NCBI GenBank assembly: GCA_019359155.1
Contig: JAHHHV010000074.1
Span: 1 to 64,000, forward strand
Reading direction: 5' to 3'
From: Pegethrix bostrychoides GSE-TBD4-15B
Lineage (GTDB): Bacteria > Cyanobacteriota > Cyanobacteriia > Elainellales > Elainellaceae
DNA: 64,000 nucleotides
In this document: positions 1 to 11,497 of the stretch, in pieces
How positions within the stretch are numbered: position 1 is the first letter of the stretch
Layout of the letters: each line of letters starts with the position of its first letter
Position numbers and translations under genes: made by a program
The notes under the pieces: model-generated
Told to the model about the DNA's origin: nothing
What the model saw: the letters and a program-made list of their open reading frames with translations, nothing else
Database searches by the model: none

Positions 1-58
1 CTGTGCGACGAGTATCACAGAGGTCGGCAAAGGCTTCGACGATAGCAAGTTGAGGCAT
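1..58 (-). mobile_element. N-terminal fragment of an ISAs1/H-repeat-type transposase, cut by the window edge
   Basis: Only the first 19 codons are in the window, read leftwards from an ATG at 58. They give MPQLAIVEAFADLCDTRRT. The pattern of a hydrophobic helix followed by D-x-R-R is how transposases of the ISAs1/H-repeat group usually begin (family knowledge, recalled and not searched). The element lies downstream of, and apparently inside, a methyltransferase gene that starts at 219. The likely end of the element is near 125-135, where the methyltransferase reading loses its family pattern. The rest of the transposase is beyond base 1. The fragment is short, so the family call is tentative. 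Confidence 0.5.
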
Positions 59-63
59 CGAGG

Positions 64-219
64 TCAGGGTTTGAGAGATGGCCTAACTACCATATCAGTT
101 TCACAATTGGAATGAAATAGCCCTGTTCTAGGATTAAGCCATTCAACAGCAGGCATACCTAAATCGGAAACGAAGCGAGCGTTATTGGCATAGGTCTTAG
201 CATCCCAGACTTGTTTCAT
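64..219 (-). pseudogene. 5' fragment of a class I SAM-dependent methyltransferase, interrupted by an insertion element
   Basis: An ATG at 219 has a GAGGA ribosome-binding site about 8 bases upstream and opens a 51-codon frame. The first 33 residues follow the start of small class I SAM methyltransferases: W-D-A-x-x-Y-A-x-N-A-R-F-V-S-D-L-G, then the lead-in to motif I (NPRTG). Motif I itself (hhDhGCGxG) is missing. The frame runs into unrelated sequence and stops at 64, just before the transposase start at 58. This is what an insertion element landing at about codon 33 would give. The gene begins about 115 bases past the core of the attC site at 334-418 and reads in the same direction as it, so it is probably the next integron cassette. 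Its 3' part would lie on the far side of the element. Confidence 0.55.
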
Positions 220-556
220 CGGAAAAATCCTCAAAGTTTGACGATTGAACTTAAGAGTGCTTGTCTTTCTACAAGGATTTAAGCGGCACTCACCGGAAAA
301 TTCAAAATACTGTCCTCACATTAAAATCAAGCTGGATAACGATTGAGTTCAGCGGCGGCTAGTAACTTTGGAATCTCACCGATCATCTCCATTTCGCCGC
401 TGCAACGATTTGTTATGCCTTAACCTCATCGATTACTCCCTGAATCTCCAATATTTAATCTTCTCCTTGAAGATTCCTTCAAGCTTAAAATCTCCGCAAA
501 GTTCTAACTGGTACTTAATAATTTAAAAAAATGACACGTTTACTCTGAGCAAAGTT
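220..556. other. spacer with attC and a small hairpin, no gene
   Basis: This spacer is AT-rich and holds no credible reading frame. Apart from the attC site it carries one perfect 7-bp stem with a 4-base loop at 466-483 (CTTGAAG/CTTCAAG). The stem lies 3' of the 557-1369 gene. It has no U-tract, so calling it a terminator would be a guess. Confidence 0.5.
334..418 (-). other. integron attC (59-base element) recombination site
   Basis: Read on the minus strand, the site opens with CATAACAAATCGTTGCAGCG and closes with CCGCTGAACTCAATCGTTAT. This matches the classical attC layout, TAACAATTCGTTCAAGCCG at one end and CGGCTTAACTCAAGCGTTAG at the other (recalled from the aadA-type site). On plus coordinates GTTCAGCGGC (347-356) pairs with GCCGCTG(C)AAC (396-406). 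Position 403 is left as the single extrahelical base expected between the two L boxes. The outer ATAAC (336-340) pairs with GTTAT (412-416). The non-conserved centre is 357-395. The outermost bases (GGATAAC/GTTATGC) depart from the RYYYAAC/GTTRRRY consensus. The site follows the stop of the 557-1369 gene on the same strand, where an attC belongs. Confidence 0.82.
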
Positions 557-1369
557 CTACACATTGCTATACTCAGAGTGCTGAAGCAGACTCAGGCTAT
601 CAGTGAACGATAAGTCATCTTCATCAAAAAAGTCTAATGTGCATTGCACCCAATTTATCTGCTCTGTCATGCGAGAACGGATAGATTTAACCAGAGCATT
701 CCACAATCCAATATCACCCGAATTTGTGATTTCCTTAATTTCAATAAGTTCCTCTACATCTAGTAATAATGGTTGGGCTAGTTGTACACAGTAGGGTGAA
801 CGAAGTTCAGCAGTAAAACTAACAGAATAGTGTTTGGTATCAGATGTCTTATCCTTCAGATTTAGGGCACGCACAATGGCTGTCACCTGTGATGCCCCAA
901 GAGGTTTATTGGTTGCTACATTGCGAAGGTGGTTTGGAAATATAAAGATTTCATTACTCTGTTTATCCAATTCCTGATCGGAGAAACACACCAAAGCGTA
1001 ATGACTTTCTTTTTTCCTACCAGAGGGTAAAAATGCGCGGCTTGTGATGAAGCAATGAATTGGTAATCTTCTTACTACGCCTTGTGCATCAATCCAGGCG
1101 TTCCATATAACCACATCATTCGGTGCCACATCAATTAGCTTAGGTTTGCTGGGCATTGGTGAAAAAATCACATGTAAAGAAGTTATTTCAGGAGCTACAA
1201 CTTTAGCATTTTCACCGAGGGACTGACCAATTCCCCAGAAGAAGTATCCACCACCTAATTGGCGTTCCCACTCCTTCCTGCGGATAATTGCCGCCAACTC
1301 TTCGCCAGCTTCGGCTCCCATTTTGGTCCAGCAGAATGTCGGGGGAATTTTTTTCATGATCGTGTCCAT
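557..1369 (-). CDS. hypothetical protein of the FWGxG pair (distant paralogue of 3461-4033), probable integron cassette gene
   Basis: This 270-residue soluble protein has no signal peptide or membrane segment. I do not recognise the family. Landmarks are an early K-M-G, a charged helix ending E-R-Q-L, then GGGYFFWGIGQSLG, a central SHYALVCF, and VSFTAELRSPYCVQL near residue 190-205. The same landmarks occur in the same order in the 190-residue protein at 3461-4033 (K-V-G, FWGYGG, RYALVL, LVANVKAPYAVFL), so the two look homologous. The last 60 residues have no counterpart there. ATG at 1369 and ATG at 1357 are both possible starts. The gene is divergent from the HTH gene, and the attC site sits after its stop. 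That suggests an integron cassette whose product works with, or regulates, the neighbouring module. Confidence 0.7.
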   Translation of the reverse strand: MDTIMKKIPPTFCWTKMGAEAGEELAAIIRRKEWERQLGGGYFFWGIGQSLGENAKVVAPEITSLHVIFSPMPSKPKLIDVAPNDVVIWNAWIDAQGVVRRLPIHCFITSRAFLPSGRKKESHYALVCFSDQELDKQSNEIFIFPNHLRNVATNKPLGASQVTAIVRALNLKDKTSDTKHYSVSFTAELRSPYCVQLAQPLLLDVEELIEIKEITNSGDIGLWNALVKSIRSRMTEQINWVQCTLDFFDEDDLSFTDSLSLLQHSEYSNV

Positions 1370-1394
1370 ATCCCAGTGACTAGGATTATATCAT

Positions 1395-1438
1395 TATGCT
1401 ATTCATTAGTAATTGTCGAATGACATAATGAATAGTAT
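1395..1438. promoter_or_regulatory. inverted repeat, probable operator between two divergent genes
   Basis: TATGCTATTCATTA (1395-1408) and TAATGAATAGTATG (1426-1439) are inverted copies, with ten perfect outer pairs and a 17-base spacer. The repeat fills the gap between the divergent starts at 1369 and about 1428. The right arm covers the ATG at 1428. An autoregulating HTH protein encoded next door would be expected to bind such a site, but binding is inference. Confidence 0.5.
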
Positions 1439-1808
1439 GACAAATGACCAAACTCAGTTAGTGGTTCAACAATTACTATCCTGCCTAAGAGCTGATAGCC
1501 GCTCTTCAAGCGAAATCGCTCGACTATCCTCTGTGAGTCAGCCAACTGTTTCGCGTATGCGACGATCCGATGGGAAGCGTCAGCGCATCAGCCAGTCATT
1601 CAATAAGCTATGCAATTTCTATGATGTGCTATCTGTTACAGATGGTAAAGCTGGTCACAGATATGATGAGCTGCTGCGAGACGCTATTATTGATGTATGG
1701 GACGGAACAGAGGCAGGCGGAAAAGCGTTGCTTGCAGTGGTTAAGTGTCTGAAAGGGTTAAACCGAAAAGTAGATGACACAGCAGGAGATTCACGCAGAC
1801 ACATCTAA
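1428..1808 (+). CDS. small HTH DNA-binding protein (putative antitoxin/repressor)
   Basis: The protein is about 126 residues. Near residues 20-45 it has a helix-turn-helix pattern, SSEIARLSSVSQPTVSRMRR: short helix, turn, then a recognition helix with Q-P-T-V-S-R, typical of Xre/lambda-repressor-like domains. The C-terminal half has no known domain that I can see. TTG 1413, ATG 1428 and ATG 1437 are all possible starts and none has a clear ribosome-binding site. The stop lies 35 bases inside the next gene, so translation is likely coupled. In two- and three-gene sets of this kind the HTH protein normally represses the operon and controls an ImmA/IrrE-type partner. That role is inferred here from gene order. 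Confidence 0.65.
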   Translation: MNSMTNDQTQLVVQQLLSCLRADSRSSSEIARLSSVSQPTVSRMRRSDGKRQRISQSFNKLCNFYDVLSVTDGKAGHRYDELLRDAIIDVWDGTEAGGKALLAVVKCLKGLNRKVDDTAGDSRRHI

Positions 1809-2820
1809 TCATCAGATCGACAGGATTTTTGGTTCCCTGGAATCTGCTGGCTTCCCGCGCAGCATACAAAATGTGCTGCTCCCCGAATGGGTGACACCGG
1901 AAGTTTTATCAGATACCTCGGCATCGTTAGAAATTGCGGCGATTCTCGCAAAGCGGCTGGGTCTTCGTACTAGTCCTCTTTTTGATGCAAGTCCACGAGT
2001 CGAATCGCTTCGGCGACGTGACGTGAAATACAAGCGTTCAATTCCAAACAAGGCGAAGAACCTGACAGCATCTACAGCAATTGCAGTTAGCGTTGCGGAA
2101 TCGGTTGCATCGGCTTGTGGTGTTGGATTTATTCCATTTGTTAGCACTGCTAATGCTCTTCGTCAAGAGGTGCTGACCTCCTTTCCGGGTAACTGGCTAG
2201 GGCTGAGAAATTTACTCCTGTTTTGCTGGTCGCATGGCGTGCCTGTGATTTATCTGGCTGAACTTGGCATCGGTGTAGCGAAAATGGATGGCATGGTGAT
2301 TCATACAGACAGCCGCCCCGTCATCATTTTGTCAAAAGCCTCTCCTCTCTGGGCATGGCAACTCTTTATTTTGGCTCATGAAGTCGCTCATCTGGCTCTG
2401 GGGCATGTGGCTCCCAATGAAATATTGATTGATGAGGAACTTAGTGAGGACTCCTATGCTCTGAAGGATGCCGACTTGGACGAGCGTACGGCTGATGCGT
2501 TTGCGATCGAGCTATTAAACGCTAGACCTGATGCGACTTATATTCCCTCAGATAGTCACATTAATTTCAGAGAACTAGCTGATTCAGCGTTTAGATTTGG
2601 CAAGAACCAACACATCGATCCTGGACACATTGTGTTGAACTTTGCGAATCAGTCCGGGAAATGGGAAATGGGTATTGCAGCCGCAAAGGTGTTGCAAGGT
2701 GAGCATCCACCCGCACCAGTAATTATTAATGAAGCGATGTGGGGTCAGATCAACCCTGAAACCTTGCCGATGGAAACCCTAGAATTCCTTGGTAGAGTTA
2801 CTGGGTCGAACCTTGAGTGA
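1774..2820 (+). CDS. ImmA/IrrE-family metallo-endopeptidase
   Basis: The zinc motif HEVAH is at residues 202-206, in a stretch reading FILAHEVAHLALGH. A downstream DERTADAFA (residues 236-244) supplies the third ligand of the E-x-x-A-D/N type. Together these mark the ImmA/IrrE (DUF955) family, gluzincin-like peptidases that cleave repressors or act as the catalytic partner in toxin-antitoxin sets. Many relatives carry an Xre HTH at the N-terminus. Here that domain is absent and the HTH comes as the separate preceding gene. The first 130 residues have no recognisable domain. The ATG at 1774 overlaps the HTH gene by 35 bases, and the stop touches the next gene. The protein is probably cytosolic. 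Its substrate may be the 1428-1808 HTH protein (inference). Confidence 0.8.
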   Translation: MTQQEIHADTSNHQIDRIFGSLESAGFPRSIQNVLLPEWVTPEVLSDTSASLEIAAILAKRLGLRTSPLFDASPRVESLRRRDVKYKRSIPNKAKNLTASTAIAVSVAESVASACGVGFIPFVSTANALRQEVLTSFPGNWLGLRNLLLFCWSHGVPVIYLAELGIGVAKMDGMVIHTDSRPVIILSKASPLWAWQLFILAHEVAHLALGHVAPNEILIDEELSEDSYALKDADLDERTADAFAIELLNARPDATYIPSDSHINFRELADSAFRFGKNQHIDPGHIVLNFANQSGKWEMGIAAAKVLQGEHPPAPVIINEAMWGQINPETLPMETLEFLGRVTGSNLE

Positions 2821-2828
2821 GGTCATTC

Positions 2829-3464
2829 ATGGATCGGCTGCTTCTGCTTGATAACGATGCCTTACTTAAACTTGCACGTTATGGGCTACTTGATGAGGTC
2901 ATAGCTCGATTCGATTTCACAATTACCGATGTACGGGTGCTTGCTACTGCAAAATACGTCCTCCTTCCTGCCAAAAATCGCTTGCTTCTTTGTGAGGATG
3001 AAGAGAGTTACTCTAGGCTAGAATCATTCCTCAAAATCGCTAAACCCCTGGATGCTAGATCGGCGGAACCAGATCTACTGGATGCAGTGAGTGCGGTACA
3101 AAATATCGACACCGGAGAAGCCTTACTGCTTGCAGTAGGTGCTACTGCTAGAGATGCACTTATTATTACAGGCGATAAGCGATCGCTAGCAGCGCTTTGT
3201 TCCCATGAATCTGTTACCCACCTCGCCAATGCACTGGCGGGTCGTGTGATATCGATGGAAGTGCTGTTCTCATACTTAGTCAAGGATCAATTTACTCACG
3301 TCCAAGAGTGCGTGAGATCGAAGCCTGATGTCGATAAAGCATTGAACATTGCATTTGGCGTAACTATGCCTGCAAGTTATGAGTCAGTGAAAGAGGCGCT
3401 AGCTTCGTATATCAATCATCTGCGTGCTGTGACAGGGGACTTACTATACACAAAATCTGGTTAA
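2829..3464 (+). CDS. PIN-like nuclease (putative toxin)
   Basis: This 211-residue protein starts at an ATG with a GAGG ribosome-binding site 6 bases upstream; an in-frame GTG at 2817 overlapping the previous stop is an alternative. It shows PIN-domain landmarks. LLLDNDALLKLA at the N-terminus supplies the first acidic residue. IDTGEALLLAVG in the middle is the conserved acidic helix. ALIITGDKRSLAAL follows as the T-x-D/G-D-x strand. PIN proteins are Mg-dependent ribonucleases and the usual toxin of VapBC-type pairs. PIN-like proteins (for example DUF4411) are also known beside ImmA/IrrE peptidases. The C-terminal 60 residues form an extra helical region. It is the last gene of the operon and ends convergently against 3461-4033 with a 4-base overlap. 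Confidence 0.65.
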   Translation: MDRLLLLDNDALLKLARYGLLDEVIARFDFTITDVRVLATAKYVLLPAKNRLLLCEDEESYSRLESFLKIAKPLDARSAEPDLLDAVSAVQNIDTGEALLLAVGATARDALIITGDKRSLAALCSHESVTHLANALAGRVISMEVLFSYLVKDQFTHVQECVRSKPDVDKALNIAFGVTMPASYESVKEALASYINHLRAVTGDLLYTKSG

Positions 3465-4033
3465 TTTTTGAGGAACACTGCATAAGGTGCTTTAACGTTG
3501 GCAACCAGTCCGATACGCTTTAATGGCTGCTCCTCCTGTGTTATGGGTAAGTCCCGAGGCGTGTAAAGAAAGCACCCTTTGTCCGCCTGACCGACTAAAT
3601 ATTGGTCAGCTTTGCGTCCACGGCTAGGTCCAATTCCAACCTGTAGTTCACCCAGATCCAAGTCAAATTCTTCGACCCGAAGCTTATCTAGAACTAGTGC
3701 ATAACGTGACCCACGAACTTCTATACCCTTGGGAATGGGTTGCCAGTTTACACCATCGTCTGAGTACTCTTTAGCAATTTCTGGCGGAGCGGCATGTTTA
3801 GAGTTCATCTTCTGCATAACGATGAGAATTTGATTGCCACTTTTTCCTACCTCTTTTGCAAAGGGTTGAACCATAGTGAGTGGATGGCAAGTATTACCGC
3901 CATAGCCCCAAAAAATAGAGCCTGCCTCTTCAAATTCGCGTTGCTTTCGCTCGACAATATCTTCGATACTCTCTTGTGCATGCAGACCAACTTTCATAAA
4001 AATAAGTCCCGCTTGCTTTATCTGGTCATCCAT
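3461..4033 (-). CDS. hypothetical protein with FWGYGG motif (paralogue of 557-1369)
   Basis: A longer frame reaches 4246, but its first 71 residues overlap the upstream gene and lack the family pattern. The ATG at 4033 gives 190 residues beginning MDDQIKQAG. This ATG overlaps the stop of the methyltransferase gene (ATGGATGA), so translation is probably coupled. Landmarks are KVGLHAQESIEDIVERK, GSIFWGYGGNTCHP, RYALVL, GFLYTP-like turns, and LVANVKAPYAVFL at the end. They match those of 557-1369 in order and spacing. It has no signal peptide or membrane segment. The family is not known to me. Because it is coupled to an enzyme of nucleophile alkylation, it may bind the same substrate. It has no visible nuclease motif. 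Confidence 0.7.
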   Translation of the reverse strand: MDDQIKQAGLIFMKVGLHAQESIEDIVERKQREFEEAGSIFWGYGGNTCHPLTMVQPFAKEVGKSGNQILIVMQKMNSKHAAPPEIAKEYSDDGVNWQPIPKGIEVRGSRYALVLDKLRVEEFDLDLGELQVGIGPSRGRKADQYLVGQADKGCFLYTPRDLPITQEEQPLKRIGLVANVKAPYAVFLKN

Positions 4034-4862
4034 TGTCCACCTCAAGTTTTTCAAGTGTATAAAGAAGGTCTGATTCTCTGTCGGTGTTGAGTGTTGTCCG
4101 CTCACGTACGTATCGAAAGCGTAACGGGGAACTTTTGCCGTAAAAATTTTCGAGCCGCGCCGACTCAAGAGGCTCCGATACAGTCTGCATGCAACTAGGA
4201 TCAATACGACGAAATAGGCACGAACATGACCGTAGATCAGGTGCATCGTCGAGATGATAAAGGTGCAACTGTGGCAGCATCTCAGCTACTACGTATCCGA
4301 GTTCAAGGGCACGACGCTGCGTATCTCGTAAAACTCCTTGAGTCCACGGTAGATCAGGGTCATCTGCTATTACGACAATCCCTAAACTCTTCTCCTTCGT
4401 TGCCTGACTACCACGCTCAAAAAAGGCGATAACACTTTCCCCATCGTTACTTGCCCCCCAGGGCGGATTGATGTGAAACCCGTCGTACACACCAAAATGT
4501 TCTGGAGGCAGTGCATCTGCCACATTGTAAAGATATGATGAAATGTTGATGTGAGGGCTAAGCTTTTCACCAAAGCGCCGCACGGAATTGACAATCCGTT
4601 CATCAAAATCAAGCAAAGTAATTGATTGCGGGCCATAATTGATGACCTTTTGAGCTTTCAAATGAGCAGCAGACAGGGCAATTCCATCACCGTCCCCAAC
4701 AAATACAACATCCTTATTATCAAAAACACGAGCTACGTACTCCGCTTGGATCACCATATCGGCGACCTTCATGTATATCTGGTCGAATTCGCGAAGTGGG
4801 GTTGGCCGATTCTGAACGACATCTGAGATTGCGTTAATCGCCTTTCGCAGATCAAACTCCAT
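4026..4862 (-). CDS. BpsA-like (DUF43) SAM-dependent methyltransferase/aminopropyltransferase
   Basis: The start is ATG 4862, with GGGA 6 bases upstream. A TTG at 4874 is also in frame but less likely. The 278-residue protein has the Rossmann order of class I methyltransferases: DVVFVGDGDG at 51-60 (motif I), ITLLDFDER at 81-89 (acidic loop), and HINPPWG at 130-136. The sequence around these, ending GYVVAEMLPQLHLYHLDD, resembles the C-terminal domain of branched-polyamine synthase BpsA. NPPW is also the catalytic tetrad type of N6-adenine and N4-cytosine methyltransferases. It could therefore alkylate an amino group on a polyamine, a protein or a nucleic acid. Its place beside a toxin-like module favours a protective modification (inference). 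Confidence 0.65.
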   Translation of the reverse strand: MEFDLRKAINAISDVVQNRPTPLREFDQIYMKVADMVIQAEYVARVFDNKDVVFVGDGDGIALSAAHLKAQKVINYGPQSITLLDFDERIVNSVRRFGEKLSPHINISSYLYNVADALPPEHFGVYDGFHINPPWGASNDGESVIAFFERGSQATKEKSLGIVVIADDPDLPWTQGVLRDTQRRALELGYVVAEMLPQLHLYHLDDAPDLRSCSCLFRRIDPSCMQTVSEPLESARLENFYGKSSPLRFRYVRERTTLNTDRESDLLYTLEKLEVDNG

Positions 4863-5102
4863 AAAAGTTCCCAAAGCGTGTTTTTATAGAAAGTCGATAG
4901 CCTATTGCTCCCCGCAAGCTTAACTATTGGTGGAATCTGCTGTCATGCAATCATATTACTGCTGCACTCTCAATTATAGATTTTCTGCTCAGCAACCTCA
5001 AAGTACTATCTAACAGATAATTTCATCCTTACTTAATTCTGAAAACTAACAGATAAAATTTTGCTCTCATCCTTGCATCGAAGACGTGTGGCATAACTAT
5101 TA

Positions 5103-5304
5103 TGTAGATGGACAACGTCTGCCTATCTACCCCCTAGAGGCGATTTAGGCGGACAGCGTCCAACTATCTCCCCGCTAGAGTGATTTAGACGGACAACTAT
5201 CCGCATATCTGCCCAAATCAGGTATTTAGACGGACAACTATCCGCATATTAGCCCTCATATCCATTTGGGCGGACAAGCTTCAGCAATTCTTTAGATGAG
5301 CTGT
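5103..5304. repeat. degenerate tandem repeat, about five 40-41 bp units
   Basis: Units begin near 5103, 5144, 5184, 5225 and 5265. Each carries TTTAGRCGGACARC, and the best two (5184, 5225) share TTTAGACGGACAACTATCCG. Every unit keeps a GGACA core, and the second to fourth place it in a quasi-palindrome GGACA-N3/4-TCC. The spacing is close to four helical turns, so bound proteins would line up on one face of the DNA. There are no unique spacers, so it is not a CRISPR array. An operator cluster or iteron-like array fits better. Confidence 0.65.
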
Positions 5305-5418
5305 CTGCCTAGCCCAATCTCACCAAACGTAAAATTTCTCACATCCCCACTTGTGCAAAGCCGAGTTTCAGCTTATGATTTTCCAACTGATCGCGTGTAG
5401 CGGTCAGGACACGCAAAA

Positions 5419-5563
5419 GCTTAAGGCGTCGCTGACTAGAAGTGGTTGCACACGACTAGCCAGCTAACCCGACTCCCCGTTCACGCGGGAAGCAAGGCTG
5501 AGTCGATTTTACATCGCGCTCGCTTCGTTCACGCATGTGGTCAGGTGACTCAACGCCTTAGGC
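5419..5563. repeat. long inverted repeat, possibly a degenerate attC or a structured leader
   Basis: GCTTAAGGCGTCGCTGAC starts at 5419 and GTGACTCAACGCCTTAGGC ends at 5563. TAAGGCGT and ACGCCTTA pair perfectly over 8 bases. The right end resembles the L'-R' end of attC sites (GACTCAACGCGTTAGGC type), but the obligatory AAC/GTT triplet is AAG/CTT here. The length (145 bp) is at the upper limit for attC. It also lies just ahead of the 5600 gene and could fold as its leader RNA. The centre holds another short hairpin (CCCG...CGGG near 5469-5489). Confidence 0.3.
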
Positions 5564-5599
5564 TTTCAAACCCATACCCAAAAATACGAGGCAAATATC

Positions 5600-5800
5600 A
5601 TGTCTACAGAGTTCAACGAACGTCTGAGAGAGCCGCTTGGCGAGCAGGCGCAGATTTGGATTGTCGGAACCCGTGAGCAGGTCAACCACATCATCAGTGA
5701 AATGTATGTCAGGCAGATGATTACCGATCGAGGCCAATTCTCGCTGTTGGTTCCCGCACCGTTCGCGCAAGGTAAATTTATGAGCGTCTTGCTGCGATAA
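5600..5800 (+). CDS. small conserved-looking hypothetical protein, 66 residues
   Basis: An ATG with GAGG about 8 bases upstream opens a frame for a compact protein of mixed alpha/beta character. It includes QIWIVGTREQVNHIISEMYV, a probable strand-helix unit, and ends in a hydrophobic-basic FMSVLLR. It has no signal peptide, membrane segment or cysteine. The composition is that of a real protein rather than a shadow frame, and the overlapping frames on both strands are low-complexity. I do not recognise the family with certainty, although short proteins of this pattern occur in cyanobacteria. It is monocistronic, downstream of the 5419-5563 inverted repeat and at the right border of the accessory island. 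Confidence 0.6.
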   Translation: MSTEFNERLREPLGEQAQIWIVGTREQVNHIISEMYVRQMITDRGQFSLLVPAPFAQGKFMSVLLR

Positions 5801-10516: not shown

Positions 10517-11497
10517 ATGAACAAAATCTGCATCTACACCGCAGGGCTAATCGCTCTGACTCAGCCTGCTGTGGCGACTAATCTTCCCGCTCAGTTTTCT
10601 ACCCGAACTACCGCGCTCCAGCCGATTCAGCAAAGCTCACCCTATTCTGCGCCTGATTCTATATCTGATTTCAGCAACGCCGATTTAGGCGTACAGTTTG
10701 ATCTCTCAAATTCTGCGCCAATTCCGACTCAAGTTTTTATCCCAGATGGTTCACAGAGTAGTTTACATAATCTACCCAACGACAACTCAAGCGTTCAACC
10801 TGCCCCCTCGCCACCTCTCAATCTGCTTGAGCAAGCTACCTTCACGCTCCGGCAGCTCTTTAGCAAAGATAGCGATTCACTGGTCGCGGTTGCGGTTGGG
10901 AACGCCGAAGGAACGCGCACCCCCGAAGGCGACCACAGCACTCATTTCTATGGCCATACCGATCCAGGGAACGGCGTTTGGAATCTGGGCACGTTCTCCT
11001 ATCAGCATGGTGCAGACTCAGTCGAAGAGGCGGATGCAAAACAGCTGGCGCGTCTCAAACGACAGGCTCAGGTGATGCAGGAAAAAGCCAGCGCCAAGGG
11101 ACTGAAGCTCACCCTCGAAGAAACGCTCAACGGCATTGACCTAGCCAATCAAGCCCCCGAAGCGCTGCTGGATGTAGCGGGCTATATTGACTGGTTGGCG
11201 CAGGCGCAGAGTCTGGGCATGAGCGGGGCAGAGGCAATTTTATGGGCGCGAGTCCAGTCTTTTATTGACCCCAAAACGCAGCGCTGGAATGCCCCCGGTT
11301 TGGGCAATACCGCCGAGAGCATCACCCGCGACCAGCAGCGCCGAATGCAGGCGATTGCGCGAGCCATCGATCGCCAAAATGACAGCATTGCCGCTGATGC
11401 TCGCCTCAACCCGCAGCCGATTGGCTTCCGACTGCCCCGCTGGAACCTGGCTCAGCGCTTGCTCAACCAGATGTCAGCTTGGCTTAACTGGGCGTAG
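10517..11497 (+). CDS. exported hypothetical protein with GNAEGTR/GHTDPGNG motifs
   Basis: A 326-residue protein with a signal peptide (CIYTAGLIALTQPAVAT) and a Ser/Pro-rich linker to about residue 115. The folded part begins AVAVGNAEGTRTP and continues FYGHTDPGNGVWNLGTFSYQHG, a tight Gly/His/Asp-rich motif that looks like a binding or active site. A helical region follows, with ARVQSFIDPKTQRWNAPGLG. I have a vague memory of this motif set in cyanobacterial envelope proteins encoded near M23-like proteins, but I cannot name the family. It is the last gene of the 8283-11497 run, 19 bases after the preceding stop. It is probably periplasmic and may act on the cell wall (inference). Confidence 0.55.
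   Translation: MNKICIYTAGLIALTQPAVATNLPAQFSTRTTALQPIQQSSPYSAPDSISDFSNADLGVQFDLSNSAPIPTQVFIPDGSQSSLHNLPNDNSSVQPAPSPPLNLLEQATFTLRQLFSKDSDSLVAVAVGNAEGTRTPEGDHSTHFYGHTDPGNGVWNLGTFSYQHGADSVEEADAKQLARLKRQAQVMQEKASAKGLKLTLEETLNGIDLANQAPEALLDVAGYIDWLAQAQSLGMSGAEAILWARVQSFIDPKTQRWNAPGLGNTAESITRDQQRRMQAIARAIDRQNDSIAADARLNPQPIGFRLPRWNLAQRLLNQMSAWLNWA

Follow-up and report, generated by a model that had tools for sequence, protein, structure and literature searches.

A gene cassette at an attI-like platform without a neighbouring integrase gene in a cyanobacterium, and copies of that platform across its genome

The usual description of an integron has a single attI next to a single intI. In cyanobacteria integrons are already on record (passages of PMC2426708, PMC8352920, PMC9668308, and PMC8618304), and IntI scores above the NCBIfam cut-off in 38 of the 98 genomes searched here, that under study included, which corrects an earlier sequence-only reading of this DNA that called them much less described there. 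Three routes to arrays that lack an integrase gene are listed in a passage of PMC8618304. What would be new is the platform arrangement reported below: no description of dispersed attI platforms without intI was found in the open-access PubMed Central literature.

The window, that is, the whole stretch of DNA analysed, covers 64 kb at the start of contig C76, which belongs to a genome of 5.72 Mb (92 contigs, 99.97% complete). The sequence-only reading had placed an attC with an extrahelical base at 403 near its left end, and I recovered the same positions. The site occupies 334-418 on the minus strand and has every part of the attC layout (RYYYAAC...GTTRRRY ends, L boxes, an extrahelical base, and a variable middle): R'' is GCATAAC at 412-418, R' is GTTATCC at 334-340, the L boxes are paired, and the extrahelical base is the G at 403. 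R' has a T at the third R position, as do, by eye, 10 of the other 23 seed sites. When the window was scanned for this layout with the spacer left free, 334-418 alone passed the threshold, and nothing did so in two single-base shuffles; a scan demanding continuous pairing missed the site. Rfam at gathering scores gave no match in the 64-kb window. On the plus strand of the window (the attC bottom strand), DNA folding yields the R/L hairpin and bulge that an attC should have, and 5 of 200 shuffles fold as well; for the minus strand of the attC the figure is 18 of 200. Folding energy alone thus says little in favour of an attC.

For the covariance-model check that the sequence-only reading had proposed, seed sites were gathered upstream of intI genes in other cyanobacteria. 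A first model, R1, comprises 24 cyanobacterial sites, the window site included, and 18 pairs; 90.4% of the cells in its alignment are paired, covariation is 0.384 against 0.119 in shuffles, and the window site scores 73 bits. A leave-out model, R2, comprises 21 sites, those of the window and of two homologous loci (L037 and L038, described below) having been removed, and it still gives the window site 51.4 bits, with an E-value of 1.8e-10 in 486 kb searched. On sequence evidence, 334-418 is thereby confirmed as an integron attC of a cyanobacterium. As to specificity, at E<=0.001 10 of the 22 control genomes are free of R2 matches, all seven from families f2 and f26 among them, and the remaining 12 have 1 to 43 each. 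Because nearly all controls (21 of 22) are without intI at E<=1e-60, the exception being a partial intI in G002, the matches in those 12 could be either true attC sites without an integrase or false positives. At 11304-11375 of another locus, L040, lies a perfect long inverted repeat with ATAAC/GTTAT at its ends, which is not an attC by the model.

The attC does follow the gene at 557-1369, as the earlier reading had it, but the cassette that it closes extends beyond that gene and holds six ORFs:

1..125, minus strand: end of a repeated element, at the contig end; 104 bp are identical to the end of contig C39, and the element is probably an insertion sequence
126..339, minus strand: probably the next cassette, cut by that element, with an ORF from 219 (MKQVWDAKTYANNARFVSDLGMPAVEWLNP...)
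340..5096, minus strand: integrated cassette of 4757 bp with six ORFs, placed by the ends of homology and the R''/core complement
560..1369 (gene 557-1369), minus strand: 270-aa protein for which family searches found no family
1413..1808, plus strand: 131-aa protein, start uncertain, with weak helix-turn-helix similarity (E 0.012, below the cut-off)
1774..2820, plus strand: 348-aa ImmA/IrrE-type M78 peptidase (PF06114, 24.6 bits; cut-off 22)
2817..3464, plus strand: 215-aa protein for which family searches found no family; by eye presumably PIN-like, from its motif
3461..4033, minus strand: protein of about 190 aa, likewise without a family, which in a single comparison shows weak similarity (E 4e-4) to the 270-aa protein
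4026..4874, minus strand: 282-aa methyltransferase-like protein, BpsA_C (PF01861, 58.7 bits; cut-off 27)

The cassette starts after the G at 5097 (G/TTATGC) and ends with the G at 340 (G/TTATCC), so that G/TTRRRY stands at both ends. Its R'' GCATAAC is the exact complement of its own far core GTTATGC, 4.7 kb away, which is the state required of an integrated cassette. Neither of the two outcomes that the sequence-only reading had named as refuting it was observed: the covariance model does hit 334-418, and cassette-like breakpoints appear on comparison with two other cyanobacteria, in which the flanks of the cassette differ. Homology to Nodosilinea sp. LEGE 07088 (L038) spans window positions 5097 to 328 with 87.5% identity; that to Cyanobacteria bacterium RU_5_0 (L037) spans 3666 to 336 with 91.5%, and a further 40-bp piece matches; the shared DNA begins at the GTTATGC core (5097) in the former and stops at the attC core in both. 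The gene at 557-1369 was found in 6 of the 388 genomes drawn, own genome included; matches in G010 (same family) and G307 (same class) were taken to be these two loci and not counted as further evidence. By eye, the DNA immediately preceding the cassette in Nodosilinea sp. LEGE 07088 (L038 1-140) resembles a group II intron 3' end, and the shared attC in RU_5_0 is immediately followed by what looks like a RelE/ParE-like toxin gene (L037 6058-6354); no further attC was found beyond the shared one at the latter locus.

The homologues of the 270-aa protein in these same cassettes are 89% (L037) and 86% (L038) identical to it. No attC was seen in the DNA read for three more distant homologues (L132-L134), which places members of the gene family outside integrons as well. 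In PADLOC the 282-aa protein weakly matches mad2 (9.4e-8) and the peptidase weakly matches several defence models, but such weak matches do not make the cassette a known defence system. The plus-strand trio (helix-turn-helix, ImmA/IrrE peptidase, and a protein without a family) lies opposite to the attC strand, as in a toxin-antitoxin-like module. A 4.76-kb cassette with an ImmA/IrrE gene indicates that integrons here can move multi-gene modules. Past the attC, the ORF that starts at 219 is interrupted at 125 by the repeated element, and region 126..339 shows no attC of its own. The contig starts at base 1 of the window, only 333 bases past the attC, so the far flank of the site is out of view; one attC is seen at the locus, whereas a CALIN has at least two within about 4 kb, without intI.

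On its other side the cassette adjoins what I call a platform, which consists of three features:

5097..5311, minus strand: attI-like region of type A, tandem units of about 50 bp ending TCTACATAATA followed by the core GTTATGC (from repeat comparison)
5312..5599, plus strand: conserved ORF66 leader, adjoining the attI-like region with no intI between them
5600..5800, plus strand: ORF66, a 66-aa gene with 40 matches in this genome

The attI-like region ends at the core and resembles the attI of an intact integron in another genome (G068), where the same repeat layout lies between intI and the first attC and the core GTTATGC matches the first R'' GCATAAC. In a complete integron intI stands next to attI; here none was found between the attI-like region and the leader, or elsewhere in the part of the platform that was read. 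A 261-bp query from the attI-like region has seven matches in the genome, all of which end at the core and then continue into different DNA.

The whole genome yielded a single match to the integron integrase family at E<=1e-10, on another contig; tyrosine recombinases of the general family number seven.

Contig C75, 98673-99020 (L006 674-1021): N-terminal fragment of an integron integrase

This truncated gene lies next to a type B attI and to an array of attC sites at 93-97 kb of C75. It is the only intI remnant found at the platforms of this genome, covering residues 10-83, and the other type B copies lack that stretch. The earlier reading had advised looking for more attC sites and an intI gene to the left of base 1; the genome has further attC sites, and the only intI found in it is this N-terminal fragment. 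The idea that the ORF66 region is an insertion that broke the C75 intI was rejected, as in the alignment it is the other copies that are missing the stretch of intI.

ORF66 matched no family, and its single-sequence structure model (mean pLDDT 53.6) was not used. It is present in 21 of the 98 genomes, own genome included, with 59 matches in G001 and 14 in G006 beside the 40 here. In relatives it follows intI in the same orientation, at a distance of about 330 to 370 bases, at five intI loci, namely 4 of the 20 intI loci read (G012 twice, G001, and G004) and the long intI of G006; the other 16 have no ORF66, some having little DNA behind intI. The G004 intI is cut at its start and the full-length G006 intI carries one in-frame TAG, which leaves three of the five ORF66-linked intI genes intact. 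Four ORF66 copies share up to 450 bp past the gene; no end of the repeated unit was found beyond ORF66, nor any mobile-element end or target duplication.

How often does this platform recur? The best 30 of 43 DNA matches to the ORF66 locus were read, and 17 of the 30 end in a core (GTTRNNN form) preceded by one of two attI types: nine are of type A (C76, C8, C67a, C25, C28, C70a, C15, C38, and C6) and eight of type B (C45, C75, C59, C70b, C67b, C40, C35, and C19). By eye, C68 appears to carry a further platform. Among the 17, the 250 bases before the core match in 100 of 136 pairs and the sequences of up to 500 bases after it match in none. The copies also agree in how the ORF66 leader is joined to the attI at the point where intI is missing. 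Against the account proposed below count the remaining 13 of 30, where the attI patterns, which were set after looking at the data, detect no core, and the state of the assembly in 92 contigs. An empty-site comparison at C70 with four genomes of the same genus matched the left flank only, and no empty site was found.

The attC sites of the genome tend to lie near these platforms. Of 34 sites at E<=1 the best 30 were used, the four weakest being left out, together with 35 of the 40 ORF66 copies; for 19 of the 30, against 0.6 expected, an ORF66 lies within 6.5 kb on the side where it should be, a limit that was chosen with the data in view. Eight of the others meet a contig end first, and three have neither ORF66 nor a contig end nearby. 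Moreover, the platform core and the first attC's R'' are exactly complementary at 7 of the 11 platforms tested (C44, with no core found, was left out), or at 7 of 10 if C75 is excluded; shuffled pairings give a mean of 1.7 matches, and a fraction of 0.00025 of them reach 7. At C75 a weak attC (97331-97415, 18.8 bits) was swapped for the next site, and both mismatch. Counting against the match are C67 (5 of 7 positions), C59 (4), and C75, where R'' fails to match, and C15, which is off by one. Counting against a link between attC and ORF66 are G002 and G003, with 11 and 43 attC sites but 0 and 1 ORF66, respectively. G003, with its 43 attC matches and one ORF66, has no intI at E<=1e-60.

G006 is a single contig, so the scatter of platforms there is not an assembly effect. 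Among the 12 of its 14 ORF66 copies that were read, five (L204, L206, L207, L208, and L210) carry the same deletion, which joins intI residues 1-40 to 243-320; four of the five share one attI type and diverge after the core; instead, another intI fragment abuts the L208 copy. The first R'' matches the core at five of the six platforms tested, and at three of the four with the deletion. Six of the 12 ORF66 loci are without any intI match, and L214 has an array of 10 attC with no ORF66 in the 19 kb read, which counts against the general association. By eye, two of the intI-less copies adjoin genes resembling mnmE and argF.

The DNA itself shows the attC, both ends of the cassette, the repeats of the attI, the absence of intI, the number of copies, and the break exactly at the core. 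It is probable that the large cassette was inserted by IntI at an attI-ORF66 platform lacking intI, and that such platforms were copied and filled in trans. On this account intI would have been deleted from a platform before platform copies spread; the intI-less attI platforms, at least 17 of them here, would have multiplied and then each received different cassettes; and an integron integrase would have inserted the cassette at 340-5096 at its attI. Cassettes taken up after the deletion would need an IntI from elsewhere, and the trans-acting IntI that would have captured them now appears to be lost from this genome. I infer the order, deletion before spread and capture afterwards in trans, from these comparisons; gene conversion between platforms could be an alternative way of spreading one deletion. 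It is quite possible, though I propose it tentatively, that the whole forms a distributed integron, in which one internal deletion of intI gave rise to many non-autonomous attI-ORF66 platforms, filled in trans, with ORF66 or its leader taking part in spread or control.

An ordinary decayed integron, in which every platform started out with an intI, took up its cassettes in cis, and was later deprived of the gene, seems unlikely. It would agree with the intI fragment kept beside the type B attI on C75, and intI loss is a proposed route to CALINs (in a passage of PMC8618304), but the copies share the leader-attI join, five G006 copies share one deletion, and the DNA after the core differs from copy to copy. 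I also doubt that ORF66 and its leader are simply the real mobile repeat, with attI carried along in some copies by homologous recombination and no special role for an integrase in trans. The stretch of up to 450 bp past the gene common to four copies fits such a repeat, as do the copies without attI beside other genes (6 of 12 in G006 and 13 of 30 here); however, it leaves the agreement of cassette ends with cores (7 of 11 and 5 of 6 platforms) unexplained. Off-target insertion of the cassette into a chromosomal site (attG), which is reported to occur (it is mentioned in passages of PMC12901181) and would suit a lone attC far from any intI, is very improbable and was dropped because the DNA before the cassette proved to be a repeated attI-like region rather than unique chromosomal DNA. 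Finally, a chance or unrelated inverted repeat at 334-418, for which one might cite the unremarkable folding energy, is refuted by the R2 score (E 1.8e-10) and by the homology breaks at the core, and its probability is negligible.

If intI-deleted platforms do multiply and still receive cassettes, as in the preferred account of platforms filled in trans, this would be a fourth route to integrase-less arrays beside the three in the cited passage of PMC8618304. A single integrase could then supply cassettes to many sites in the chromosome, and arrays that now pass for integrase-less could belong to one network.

The locus shares with sedentary chromosomal integrons its attC, an attI-like region, exact G/TTRRRY cassette ends, and IntI in relatives, but it differs in that the platform lacks intI and that at least 17 attI-like platforms occur in one genome. 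With non-autonomous, internally deleted derivatives of transposons it has in common copies that share a single internal deletion of a recombinase gene; here, however, what is copied is an integron platform, for which neither ends nor target duplications were found. CALINs and single attC elements (Cury et al., as cited in a passage of PMC8618304) likewise have attC without a neighbouring intI, whereas here an attI-like region and an accessory gene are kept and the copies share one join at which intI is missing. Finally, the Delta-attI-type cassettes of mobile integrons, as described in a passage of PMC12901181, also have attI away from intI; in those cassettes short attI remnants replace attC within an array, whereas here whole attI regions precede scattered arrays.
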